Of a DNA stretch of 64,000 nucleotides, positions 18,043 to 22,490 are shown one piece after another. Source of the DNA: Pseudoprimorskyibacter insulae (GTDB lineage: Bacteria > Pseudomonadota > Alphaproteobacteria > Rhodobacterales > Rhodobacteraceae); the NCBI RefSeq assembly GCF_900302505.1, contig NZ_OMOJ01000006.1:62001-126000 (forward strand). The letters run 5' to 3'. A program made the position numbers and the translations under genes. The notes under the pieces are model-generated. The model was not told where the DNA came from. It saw only the letters and a list, made by a program, of their open reading frames with translations, and searched no databases. Each line of letters starts with the position of its first letter. Positions within the stretch are counted from its first letter, which is position 1.

Positions 18043-19308
18043 TTAGGCTGCGTTGATATTCGCAGGCTTGCCCGATTTGCCCGAGTTCTGGTCGATGAAT
18101 TCCAGAACCAGCGGGCGGATGTTGTTGCGCCAGCTTTTGCCAGCGAAGATGCCGTAATGGCCTGCGCCTGGCTCCACGTGGCTGGCTTTCTTGCTGTCAG
18201 GCAGGCCGGTGCAAAGGTTCAAAGCGGCGATACACTGGCCGGGGGCCGAGATATCGTCTTTCGCGCCTTCGACGGTCTTGACCGCAACGCTGGTGATCGC
18301 ACCCATGTCCACCTTATGCCCATCAACGATGAATTCGTTCTTGGCAATTTCGCGGTTCTTGAACACGCGTTCCACCGTCGACAGATAGAATTCAGCGGGC
18401 ATATCCATGACGGCCAGATATTCGTCATAGAAGCGATTGTGCGCATCGTGATCCGACGCTTGCCCGCGCGACACGCGCGAGATTTGATCGGTGAAGGCTT
18501 TGCTGTGGCGGTCGGCGTTCATCGACATGAAGGACGACAGTTGCAGCAGGCCCGGATAGACCATGCGGCCCACCCCTTTGTATTTAAAACCAACCCGCTG
18601 GATCATGGTTTCTTCCAGTTGGCCCATGGTGACGCGGCGGCCAAAGTCGGTGACTTCGGTCGGGGCAGCGCCCGGATCGATCGGGCCACCGATCAGCGTC
18701 AGCGAACGGGGCTGCGCGTCGGGGTCCAGCTCGGCCAGATAAGCGGTGGCGGCCAAGGTCAGCGGCGCAGGCTGGCACACGGCGATCACGTGGGTGTCCG
18801 GTCCAAGGAAGCGCATAAACTCCATCAGATAGAGTGTGTAATCTTCGATGTCGAACTTGCCAGCGCTGACCGGGATATCGCGGGCATTGTGCCAATCGGT
18901 GACGTAGACTTCGCAATCGGGGATCAGCGATTGCACGGTCGAGCGCAGCAGGGTCGCGTAGTGACCCGACATCGGCGCAACCAGCAGGATTTTTCGCGCC
19001 ATTTCTTCGCGGCCCAAAACGTTGAAGTGCAGCAGATCGCCAAAGGGCTTTTCCACCACGACTTCTTTGCTGACCAAGTGATCGCGGCCATCGGCGCAGG
19101 TCATGGTGCGGATGCCCCAGGACGGTTTGACGACCATACGTTCGAAGGTGCGTTCCGTCACTTCGCCCCATGCAGCAAGCCACTGCATTGCCGGGTTCGG
19201 CATGGCAGCCATTGCAGGATAGGAGGCCATGGTCTTCGCCGTCGCACCAAGCCACTGGTTGGTGTTGCGAATGGTTTCCATCAGGTCGTAAGTCGCCATA
19301 TAGCGCAT
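18043..19308 (-). CDS. phaZ: intracellular polyhydroxyalkanoate depolymerase
   Basis: Mobilises stored polyhydroxybutyrate. It has 421 residues in the alpha/beta-hydrolase fold of the PHB_depo_C family. The nucleophile sits in HVIAVCQPAPLTLAA, a cysteine instead of serine as in PhaZ1-type enzymes. The acid is in VEGAKDDIS and the His in VEPGAGHYGIFAGKSWRN. There is no signal peptide, which fits an intracellular enzyme. I use ATG 19308, with GGAG 6 nt upstream; an ATG at 19320 is in frame. It is divergent from phaC across a 105-bp control region containing an AATCTGA/TCAGATT palindrome. Confidence 0.93.
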   Translation of the reverse strand: MRYMATYDLMETIRNTNQWLGATAKTMASYPAMAAMPNPAMQWLAAWGEVTERTFERMVVKPSWGIRTMTCADGRDHLVSKEVVVEKPFGDLLHFNVLGREEMARKILLVAPMSGHYATLLRSTVQSLIPDCEVYVTDWHNARDIPVSAGKFDIEDYTLYLMEFMRFLGPDTHVIAVCQPAPLTLAATAYLAELDPDAQPRSLTLIGGPIDPGAAPTEVTDFGRRVTMGQLEETMIQRVGFKYKGVGRMVYPGLLQLSSFMSMNADRHSKAFTDQISRVSRGQASDHDAHNRFYDEYLAVMDMPAEFYLSTVERVFKNREIAKNEFIVDGHKVDMGAITSVAVKTVEGAKDDISAPGQCIAALNLCTGLPDSKKASHVEPGAGHYGIFAGKSWRNNIRPLVLEFIDQNSGKSGKPANINAA

Positions 19309-19378
19309 GCGCGTCTCCATCTCTCCGGGTTAATAGTCCCGGGTAAAACGCCGCGTTGAACTTTGGCAATGCGACGTT

Positions 19379-19413: not shown

Positions 19414-21207
19414 ATGACAACGAACGACGTTGCCGCAGCTGCAAACAAGACGCGTTTGGAGGAAAATCTCTCTCGAATCGAGGAGTTATCGCAACGGTTG
19501 GTTGCGGCGCTGCGGCAAAAGCAGTCGGTCAACCCATCGCTGAGTGCGCCAAGTGGCGATCTCTATGTTAAGGCCGCGCAGGCCTATATGCATGAGTGGA
19601 TGCAAAACCCGGCCAAGGTTCTTGAACATCAGATTGAATTTTGGGGCAGTTCCGTGCGGCATTTCGTCGATGCCCAAAGCGCCCTGTCCAAAGGCAAGTT
19701 GCAGCCGCCCGCCGACACTGGCCCAAAGGACCGCCGGTTCAGCAATCCGCTCTGGGATTCGCACCCCTATTTCAACTTCGTCAAACAGCAGTACCTGATC
19801 AACGCCAAGGCCATCGAACAGGCCGTTGGCGATGTCGAAGATCTGGACGAAACCGAGAAGCGCCGGCTCAAGTATTTCGCCAGTCAGATCGTCGATATGA
19901 TGGCGCCGACCAACTTTTTGGCCACCAACCCCGACGCCTTGGAACGTGCCGTTGCAACCGAAGGCGAAAGTCTGGTGCGCGGGCTGGAAAACCTTGTCGC
20001 CGATCTTGAGGCGAACAAGGGCGAATTGATTGTCCGACTGGTGGATGAAAGCGCGTTCGAGGTCGGGGGCAATATCGCCACCGCCGATGGTGAAGTGGTT
20101 TTCCGCAACCACATGATGGAGATCATCCAATACGCGCCCACCACCGAAAAGGTGCGTGAGACGCCGATCGTGTTGTTCCCGCCGTGGATCAACAAGTTCT
20201 ACATTCTGGACCTGCGGGAATCGAACAGCTTTATCCGCTGGGTCGTCGATCAGGGTTATACGCTGTTTGTCGTCAGCTGGGTGAACCCCGATGAAAGCAT
20301 GGCGCAGATCGGCATGGGCGACTATGTGCAAGACGGCTATCTGACCGCCTTCGACGTGGTCAAATCCATCACCAAGCAAGACCGGATCAACGCCATCGGC
20401 TATTGCATCGCGGGCACCACGTTGAACCTAACGCTGGGCTTGCTGAAAAAACGCGGCGACAAATCGGTCAAATCCGCGACCTTCTTTACCACGCTGACCG
20501 ATTTCTCGGATCAGGGGGAATTCACGCCCTTCTTGCAGAATGACTTCATCGACGGGATCGAGGCCGAGGTGAACGCCAAGGGCATTCTGCATTCCTTCAT
20601 CATGGCGCGAACCTTTTCCTTCCTGCGTTCCAACGATCTAGTCTATGGGCCTGCGATCCGCAGTTACATGCTGGGCGAAACGCCGCCCGCCTTCGACCTG
20701 CTTTATTGGAACGGGGACGGGGCCAACCTGCCGGGCAAGATGGTGGTCGAATATCTGCGCGGGCTGTGCCAGCGCAACGAACTGGCCGGGGATGGCTTTG
20801 AGGTTCTGGGCGAGACGGTGTCGCTAAAGGATGTCGATGTGCCCATGTGTTCCATCGCGTGTGAGACCGACCATATCGCCGCGTGGAAAGATTGCTATCG
20901 CGGGTTCCAGCAGGCGGCCAGCCGGTCGAAGACCTTTATCCTGTCTGAGTCGGGCCACATCGCGGGCATCGTTAATCCGCCCTCCAAAAAGAAGTACGGC
21001 CATTATCTGAACACCGATCTGAAACTGCCTGCCGAAGACTGGCAGGCGCAGGCAGATTTCCACGAAGGGTCCTGGTGGCCGCATTGGGAAAAGTGGATCG
21101 CCAAGCGGTCTGGCAAGTGGATTGACGCTCGCCCTGTAGGCGATTCGGAGCATCCGCCGCTCGCCCATGCGCCGGGGACGTATGTGTTGGTGAAGGCAAA
21201 GGGTTGA
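19414..21207 (+). CDS. phaC: class I polyhydroxyalkanoate synthase
   Basis: Polymerises 3-hydroxyacyl-CoA to PHA at the granule surface. It has 597 residues, normal for class I. The PhaC N-terminal domain is followed by the alpha/beta-hydrolase core. The catalytic Cys is in GYCIAGTTLNL (about Cys331), the Asp in ACETDHIAAWKDCY (about 486) and the His in LSESGHIAGIVNPP (about 515). The typical C-terminus is WWPHWEKWI. The lipase-like box ends AGT where many have GGT. It is the head of the phaC-phaP-phaR series and divergent from phaZ. Confidence 0.97.
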   Translation: MTTNDVAAAANKTRLEENLSRIEELSQRLVAALRQKQSVNPSLSAPSGDLYVKAAQAYMHEWMQNPAKVLEHQIEFWGSSVRHFVDAQSALSKGKLQPPADTGPKDRRFSNPLWDSHPYFNFVKQQYLINAKAIEQAVGDVEDLDETEKRRLKYFASQIVDMMAPTNFLATNPDALERAVATEGESLVRGLENLVADLEANKGELIVRLVDESAFEVGGNIATADGEVVFRNHMMEIIQYAPTTEKVRETPIVLFPPWINKFYILDLRESNSFIRWVVDQGYTLFVVSWVNPDESMAQIGMGDYVQDGYLTAFDVVKSITKQDRINAIGYCIAGTTLNLTLGLLKKRGDKSVKSATFFTTLTDFSDQGEFTPFLQNDFIDGIEAEVNAKGILHSFIMARTFSFLRSNDLVYGPAIRSYMLGETPPAFDLLYWNGDGANLPGKMVVEYLRGLCQRNELAGDGFEVLGETVSLKDVDVPMCSIACETDHIAAWKDCYRGFQQAASRSKTFILSESGHIAGIVNPPSKKKYGHYLNTDLKLPAEDWQAQADFHEGSWWPHWEKWIAKRSGKWIDARPVGDSEHPPLAHAPGTYVLVKAKG

Positions 21208-21251
21208 ATTCTTTTGAAGATTATTTTTTCGGCAGCGCAGAAAGAAAATCC

Positions 21252-21293
21252 TTGAAATGCTGCGCCGCAGCATGCATATTGTTTGCAGCTGCA
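21252..21293 (+). promoter_or_regulatory. phaP promoter with PhaR-type operators
   Basis: TTGAAA (21252-21257) and CATATT (21275-21280) are 17 bp apart. The perfect palindrome ATGCTGCGCCGCAGCAT (21257-21273) fills that spacer and contains CTGC-N3-GCAG. A second TGC palindrome, TGCAGCTGCA, lies at 21284-21293. TGC-rich CTGC-N3/4-GCAG sites are, as I recall, the binding sequence of PhaR in Paracoccus. Repression by PhaR when no granules are present is inferred. Confidence 0.75.
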
Positions 21294-21338
21294 GAAAAAG
21301 CGAGGTGGGCTCGCTCAGCAAGCTAAAGGATTTTTAAG

Positions 21339-21788
21339 ATGGCCAAGACCCAAGATTTCACCGCCCTGATGAAAGACATGATGGGCGCGTTCCCGGTTGA
21401 CACCGCAGCCATGGAAGACGCTTTCAAAACCACCGCGACGCTGAACGAAAAGCTGTCGGGCGTTGCTCTGGAAGCTGCTGAAAAGTCGGCCGACATTTCG
21501 TCCAAGTGGACCAAAGACACCCTGACCAAACTGGCAGACATGTCGAAAGCAAAGGCAGAGCCGGCAGATTACGCAAAAGCCATCACCGATTTCGCATCGG
21601 CTCAGGCTGAAGTTGCTGCTGAAAACATGGCCGCCTTTGCTGAGATCGCCAAGAAAGTACAGATGGAAACCGTTGAGCTGATGATGGCTGCCGGCAAAGA
21701 TCTGTCGGAAGACGCAACTGCCGCAGTGAAGAAGGCCACCAACGACGTGACCGCCGCTGCTAAGAAAGCTGCAACCGCAGCAAAGTAA
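21339..21788 (+). CDS. phaP: phasin, granule-coat protein
   Basis: A 149-residue protein that coats PHA granules and controls their size and number. It is almost entirely amphipathic helix, rich in Ala and Lys, with the phasin_2-type core FKTTATLNEKLSGVALEAAEKSADISS and a Lys/Ala C-terminal tail (AAVKKATNDVTAAAKKAA). AAGGA precedes ATG 21339. The codon use is uniform, with few rare codons, as expected for an abundant protein. It is controlled by the promoter/operator at 21252-21293 and ended by a strong terminator. Confidence 0.92.
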   Translation: MAKTQDFTALMKDMMGAFPVDTAAMEDAFKTTATLNEKLSGVALEAAEKSADISSKWTKDTLTKLADMSKAKAEPADYAKAITDFASAQAEVAAENMAAFAEIAKKVQMETVELMMAAGKDLSEDATAAVKKATNDVTAAAKKAATAAK

Positions 21789-21844
21789 GCTGACAAGCTT
21801 CGCGACGCTCACTTTCTCCTCCCAAATGTTATGAGCGTCGCTGC

Positions 21845-21879
21845 AAGGCCGGATCTTCAGATCCGGCCTTTTGTTTTTT
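21845..21879 (+). terminator. strong intrinsic terminator after phaP
   Basis: The stem AAGGCCGGATCT / AGATCCGGCCTT is followed by TTGTTTTTT. Just upstream a separate 9-bp inverted repeat (GCGACGCTC 21802-21810, GAGCGTCGC 21833-21841) adds structure to the 3' UTR. Confidence 0.9.
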
Positions 21880-21911
21880 CAATGGCTTGCTTTTGTTCTG
21901 CAGTCGCATAA

Positions 21912-21924
21912 GCTGCAATGCAGC
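21912..21924. promoter_or_regulatory. PhaR-type operator upstream of phaR
   Basis: The perfect palindrome GCTGCAATGCAGC contains CTGC-N3-GCAG, the same core as the operator in the phaP promoter. It lies 23 bp before the phaR start, suggesting autorepression. Confidence 0.7.
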
Positions 21925-21947
21925 GCCGCACTCTAGGGGAGGGACCC

Positions 21948-22490
21948 GTGCCAACCACCGATAAGCCACTCTTGATTAAGCGGTATGCCAGCCGTCGTCT
22001 GTACAACACCGAAACGTCTGACTACGTGACCTTGGAAGATATCGCCGGGTTCATTCGTGATGGCCGTGAAGTACAGATCGTCGATCTGAAGTCCGGCGAC
22101 GACCTGACTCGCCAGTATCTGCTTCAGATCGTGGCTGAGCACGAAAGCCGTGGCGAAAACGTTCTGCCGATCAATGTTCTGACAGATCTGGTCCGCAGCT
22201 ATACGACGCAAGCGACAAGCGTCGTGCCGCAGTTTCTGGCGGCCAGCTTTGATATGTTTCGCGACAGCCAATCGCATTGGGTTGAGAATATGAACAAGGT
22301 CAACCCAATGGCCGGTATTCCGGGGTTTGAGGCCATGCAAGCCCAGCAAGAGGCCTTCTTGAAGGCCATGACGGGCGGGCTAAAGCCGGGCAGCACCGTT
22401 CCTGGCACTGAAACCGGGGGCGAGGATCTGAGCGATATAAAGCGCCAGTTGGCCCAGTTGCAGGAAAAACTGTCGAAGATGGACAAATAA
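21948..22490 (+). CDS. phaR: polyhydroxyalkanoate synthesis repressor
   Basis: A DNA- and PHB-binding repressor of phasin synthesis; it is released from DNA when it binds nascent granules. It has 180 residues. The N-terminal PHB/PHA accumulation regulator DNA-binding domain reads PLLIKRYASRRLYNTETSDYV and continues to VQIVDLKSGDDLTRQ. The PHB_acc domain follows (PQFLAASFDMFRDSQ), then a C-terminal coiled coil (LSDIKRQLAQLQEKLSKM). The start is GTG 21948 behind AGGGGAGGG. The ATG at 21918 is rejected because it lies inside the operator palindrome and has no ribosome-binding site. Confidence 0.93.
   Translation: MPTTDKPLLIKRYASRRLYNTETSDYVTLEDIAGFIRDGREVQIVDLKSGDDLTRQYLLQIVAEHESRGENVLPINVLTDLVRSYTTQATSVVPQFLAASFDMFRDSQSHWVENMNKVNPMAGIPGFEAMQAQQEAFLKAMTGGLKPGSTVPGTETGGEDLSDIKRQLAQLQEKLSKMDK

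Follow-up and report, generated by a model that had tools for sequence, protein, structure and literature searches.

A predicted PhaR-controlled phaP promoter with two operator boxes, and mirrored box centres across the Rhodobacteraceae

In the 64,000-nt stretch of DNA analysed here (the window), a palindrome lies within a promoter-like element upstream of a phasin gene. Is this palindrome an operator for the repressor PhaR, and if it has a partner, where is the second site? The genes of the cluster are arranged in the order phaZ (minus strand), phaC, phaP and phaR, and the palindrome is located between the phaC stop (21207) and the phaP start (21339). The features are the following.

18043-19320, minus strand: phaZ, intracellular PHB depolymerase (TIGR01849, 589 bits, cut-off 301)
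19414-21207, plus strand: phaC, class I PHA synthase (TIGR01838, 734 bits, cut-off 623)
21230-21240, no strand: distal PhaR-type box CGGCAGCGCAG, one mismatch to CTGCRNYGCAG
21252-21257, plus strand: -35 element TTGAAA (promoter scan; TTG at the same place in relatives)
21257-21273, no strand: 17-nt palindrome ATGCTGCGCCGCAGCAT, from the sequence, containing the proximal box
21260-21270: proximal PhaR-type box CTGCGCCGCAG, exact match to CTGCRNYGCAG
21275-21280, plus strand: -10 element CATATT (promoter scan; 17 nt past TTGAAA)
21284-21293, no strand: downstream TGC palindrome TGCAGCTGCA, from the sequence, not conserved
21339-21788, plus strand: phaP, phasin (PF09361 Phasin_2, 25.7 bits, cut-off 24.9)
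21845-21870, plus strand: terminator-like hairpin and T run 3' of phaP (consensus scan only)
21913-21923, no strand: PhaR-type box CTGCAATGCAG in the phaR leader, exact match to CTGCRNYGCAG
21948-22490, plus strand: phaR, PHA synthesis repressor (TIGR01848, 154.3 bits, cut-off 109.5; PF07879 and PF05233)

The preliminary description of this DNA had named the gene behind the promoter as phaP and PhaR as its regulator. Both names agree with the profile searches, PF09361 identifying a phasin and a PhaR gene being present two genes away. The Pfam assignment of the phasin is narrow, and NCBIfam profiles gave no match for the phaP product; it is supported by proteins of 51-88 percent identity encoded at the corresponding position in 23 regions from relatives. 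One such phasin gene was detected in the genome at E values up to 10. For phaR, the GTG at 21948, preceded by GGGGAGGGA, appears to be the likelier start; the ATG at 21918, given by a mechanical list of open reading frames, falls within the PhaR-type box of the leader. Comparison of PhaR with solved structures yielded no meaningful match.

TTGAAA and CATATT, which had been described as 17 bp apart with the palindrome exactly between them, are indeed separated by 17 nt and represent the sole sigma70-like match in 21100-22000 (consensus scan; shuffles average 0.3). The TTG and TATA-like hexamers of the predicted phaP promoter thus have a spacing within the 16-18 nt of sigma70-type promoters, and they are conserved. 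The palindrome, a perfect 8+1+8 repeat, does fill the spacer, but its position is off by one base: its first A is shared with the last base of the -35 element, and a single G remains before the -10 element.

Taken alone, a 17-nt odd palindrome is weak evidence and not rare. The window contains three odd perfect palindromes with 8-nt arms (1.4 expected). The exact 17-mer is found at a single place in the genome. Two exact copies of the consensus CTGCRNYGCAG are present in the window (0.57 expected), one at 21260 and one at 21913, and each belongs to the phaP-phaR stretch. The genome has 58 exact copies, against 10 of the reversed pattern; the core box also arises there by chance. Could the palindrome then serve phaC as an intrinsic terminator, or be a product of chance in a GC-rich genome? 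The terminator-like listing of 21257-21273 by the consensus scan and the number of such palindromes in the window speak for these explanations. Against them, the T tract is weak, the tail GCATATTGTT being a poor U run, and chance is excluded by the conserved two-box architecture described below; because this architecture is kept among relatives, the palindrome must be regarded as exceeding chance. A terminator or a fortuitous palindrome is therefore very improbable.

The sequence of the box points to PhaR. According to the parts of the literature consulted, R. sphaeroides PhaR binds CTGCNNNGCAG at phaP (Chou and Yang 2010 as cited in PMC12542648), and the PhaR motifs are YGCRNYGCR in S. meliloti (PMC12542648) and TGCRNYGCA in R. 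eutropha (PMC12849132). The core CTGCGCCGCAG matches the R. sphaeroides site, TGCRNYGCA is found exactly at 21260-21270, and the window box fits both motifs.

PhaR was present in 46 of 61 genomes searched, and 23 of 30 PhaR loci examined carried a phasin gene in the same stretch, which gave 24 upstream regions for comparison. The spacer box was exact in 21 of these and had one mismatch in the remaining 3, with TTG located 8 nt upstream of it in 23 of 24. A PhaR-type box lies within the promoter spacer, as had been proposed, and the promoter geometry is kept in relatives. A different picture was obtained for the second TGC palindrome, which the preliminary description had placed just downstream. 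The palindrome TGCAGCTGCA does exist at 21284-21293, but its role as a second site was not borne out: among the 24 regions the best candidates downstream of the spacer box carry 2-5 mismatches, and as it is not conserved, TGCAGCTGCA was rejected as the second operator. Upstream of the -35 element, by contrast, at a distance of about 10 nt from the TTG, a second box was exact in 20 of 24 regions and had one mismatch in 3 (window included) and four mismatches in one, the second phasin gene of a genome. Taking into account that the upstream box is exact or near-exact in 23 of 24 regions and that there is no good downstream box, the conserved second operator is predicted to be the overlooked upstream box CGGCAGCGCAG at 21230-21240. 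It lies on the other side of the -35 element, starts 22 nt past the phaC stop codon, and has its single mismatch in a conserved arm, CGGC instead of CTGC.

The layout common to these regions is one box just 5' of the -35 element and another in the spacer, followed by (C/T)ATATT. Exact two-box architectures were found in 76 of 149 family genomes and, with free centres, in 196 of 394; in both searches the reversed control gave 0 among the matches listed. The exact pattern was absent from 198 of the 394, the genome studied here among them. A scan of named genomes gave at least 120 two-box stretches, and the 80 listed belong to Rhodobacteraceae or to unplaced Alphaproteobacteria/Rhodobacterales, except one Actinomyces record. 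A phasin gene lies downstream of 260 of 261 distinct two-box stretches. The set of 260 operators used below leaves out the Actinomyces record (L137), a locus with no phasin downstream and a non-RNY box (L188), and four listed pairs (G100, G101, G074, G123). Within this set 236 operators are located within 120 nt behind a phaC stop. The -10 position has A at position 2 in 98 percent and T at position 3 in 95 percent, and CATATT stands at the window's very -10 position in 101 of 260. Box starts are 26-31 nt apart (26-30 in the 24 regions), so that the two boxes do not hold a strict helical phase to each other. All 520 boxes have an RNY centre; this is no evidence for loci L053-L082, because their search pattern required RNY, whereas in the search of 394 genomes the centre was left free, and the 89 further pairs among the matches listed there had RNY in all 178 boxes. 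In some genomes (loci L058, L306 and others) the first phasin gene is followed by another that has a two-box operator of its own, and those pairs are rarely mirrored in the sense described below.

With its genes, promoter-like geometry, box sequence and conservation directly visible in the DNA, the stretch is very probably a regulated phaP promoter with two predicted PhaR operators. PhaR binding, repression and release by the polymer would here follow the published PhaR systems. Polymer-free PhaR would occupy both the spacer box and its partner directly 5' of the -35 element, covering the surface needed by RNA polymerase and keeping the phasin gene off; as the preliminary description proposed, occupancy might block polymerase completely. 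Once PHB accumulates, PhaR would leave the DNA for the granule, which is reported to sequester it (PMC12542648 and PMC9049629, in the parts consulted), and transcription of phaP would follow. The loop would be closed by the phasin so produced, which would take the place of PhaR on the granule. As an operator this is a known, ordinary type of switch. What the analysis adds is a sharp and checkable anatomy of phasin control in Rhodobacteraceae, namely a box in the 17-nt spacer, a box just upstream of the -35 element and RNY centres, and a correction as to which second palindrome is relevant for operator tests.

PhaR-type boxes also occur elsewhere. TGCRNYGCA is present in 91 of 198 phaR leaders (0.7 in shuffles), and the leader box CTGCAATGCAG is likely to serve autoregulation. 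Of the 58 exact boxes in the genome 50 were examined, and by a crude GC rule 35 lie in coding-like frames and 15 have no clearly coding frame. One box, CTGCGCTGCAG, is found 94 nt upstream of an acetyl-CoA acetyltransferase gene (phaA-like; contig C9, 219548-219558) with CATATT behind it at close to the spacing seen in phaP; as a family trait a box before the ketothiolase gene was rejected, since no more than 2 of 23 loci of the family, the present one included, have it in exact form. On contig C7, around 104378, the box-like sequences CTGCAACGCGG and CTGCGTCGCAG stand about 35 nt apart before a small open reading frame (MQIVETLRARIARHRQYSRTL...), which we presume to resemble DUF1127 proteins.

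When the two boxes of an operator were compared, their central trinucleotides were reverse complementary in 70 of 260 operators, against 19.2 expected and a maximum of 35 in 10000 shuffles. Identical centres were not enriched (19 vs 15.8 expected). The excess was seen both in the first 78 pairs (26 mirrored vs 5.3 expected) and in the 89 further pairs, which came from other genomes (28 vs 7.0). At the middle base, Watson-Crick combinations number 115 (65.5 expected), and G-C or C-G outnumber G-G or C-C by 97 to 33. Shared ancestry was rejected as the source of mirroring: when 241 operators were shuffled 3000 times, each only among those of related proteins, the observed value was never attained (with 80 groups, most of them single and the largest of 49, the mean rose to 32.7 vs 62 observed). 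The window, with the centres AGC and GCC, is a poor example, because only two of three positions are complementary and the distal arm is changed. Box centres vary nearly as much between the closest as between distant relatives, with the CTGC/GCAG arms fixed, as the search pattern itself required. The consulted parts of the PhaR literature, in a search not aimed at mirroring alone, do not describe it, and the mirrored covariation of two PhaR boxes looks new.

Mirroring is a statistical finding, for which template switching, an RNA hairpin behind phaC and a mirror-symmetric PhaR complex are candidate causes. Strand-specific reverse complementarity is unreadable for a symmetric dimer on one box, and the centres change fast. 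Family-wide, the two phaP operators may form a co-evolving mirrored pair, that is, a single two-part element which, besides being recognised by PhaR, has a further property: a twofold-symmetric PhaR complex across the -35 element or else a stem at the phaC 3' end; we put this forward tentatively, as a possibility that falls somewhat short of even. If phaC transcripts run into the boxes, distal and proximal box could fold as an 11-bp hairpin fixing or protecting the phaC 3' end, and mirrored centres would keep the pairing. The prevalent location behind phaC and the excess of reverse-complementary centres are consistent with such a stem, as is the higher frequency of perfect mirroring with a longer inner stem (50 of 130 with C directly after the distal box, 20 of 130 with another base). 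However, G-U is not favoured at the middle base (21 vs 29.3 expected; A-C 15 vs 23.0; 260 operators), a U run is absent behind the boxes, mirroring is not commoner at shorter spacing, and two stem positions are broken in the window. Moreover, pairing of the next outer base is less frequent in mirrored (45 of 70) than in unmirrored operators (153 of 190), with outer pairing over all operators above shuffles (198 vs 166). A simple longer stem is also at odds with the base before the distal box, since perfect mirroring is commoner if this base is other than G (35 of 78) than if it is G (35 of 182). Mirrored centres occur in 3 of the 23 operators away from phaC and in 66 of 236 behind phaC, a difference that leans toward a stem but is indecisive (Fisher 0.14); a restriction of mirroring to operators behind phaC was accordingly rejected as not significant. 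Covariation by itself is no proof of RNA structure, and an RNA stem is distinctly unlikely as the cause.

Mirroring could also be a functionless by-product, if during replication the new strand snaps back onto the inner arms of the two boxes and one centre is copied onto the other (quasipalindrome correction). Template switching is a published source of compensatory changes in stems (PMC8794818, in the part consulted). It would fit the confinement of the enrichment to Watson-Crick identity, the dependence on the inner arm just mentioned and the fast turnover of centres, whose divergence averages 0.45 over 11 nearest pairs (<8 percent difference in PhaC and PhaP). Among nearest pairs, however, single-side centre changes outnumber compensated double changes by 132 to 44, and a copying tract should extend to the next outer base, which pairs less in mirrored operators; this origin is somewhat unlikely. 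Alternatively, a PhaR oligomer whose twofold axis falls between the two boxes might bind both and work best on oppositely oriented copies. That orientation counts at the middle base, in a way invisible to a symmetric dimer on a single box, argues for such a complex. So do the higher frequency of mirroring with a fuller distal box and at spacings of at least 28 nt (58 of 190 vs 12 of 70 at shorter ones), and the dimer-dimer contacts proposed for R. eutropha PhaR (PMC12849132, in the part consulted). On the other side, for a rigid complex the spacing, at 26-31 bp, is loose, and mirroring is absent from the phaP1 and phaP2 boxes of S. meliloti (PMC12542648, Table 3). In addition, the phaR box shares its word with the phaP boxes of the same genome in 3 of 17 cases (2.7 expected; a small sample), which leaves a species-specific word common to phaP and phaR unsupported. 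Protein symmetry is thus an unlikely cause. If the mirrored covariation is functional, operator swaps could separate protein symmetry, RNA stem and template switching.

The two-box phaP promoter can be compared with known systems as they appear in the consulted parts of the publications. The R. sphaeroides phaP operator, compared by box sequence alone, has the same box, regulator family and target gene as the window. In R. eutropha phaP1 the PhaR sites fit YTKNTGCRNYGCANMAR (PMC12849132); the TGCRNYGCA core and one site directly 5' of the -35 element are shared with the window, whereas the other site is situated around the start of transcription and not in the spacer. In B. diazoefficiens phaP1 two boxes separated by 17 nt flank the -35 element, as in the window; mutation of either weakens binding and both are needed for full binding (PMC10888616). 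Its proximal box overlaps the -10 element, whereas that of the window is placed in the spacer and stops 4 nt short of the -10 element. In S. meliloti the outer arms differ, the centres are not mirrored and the phaP1 box starts are 18 bp apart. Nevertheless phaP1 and phaP2 of this species have, like the window, two PhaR (AniA) palindromes of the YGCRNYGCR type around the -35 element (PMC12542648), and those of phaP2 start 28 bp apart.
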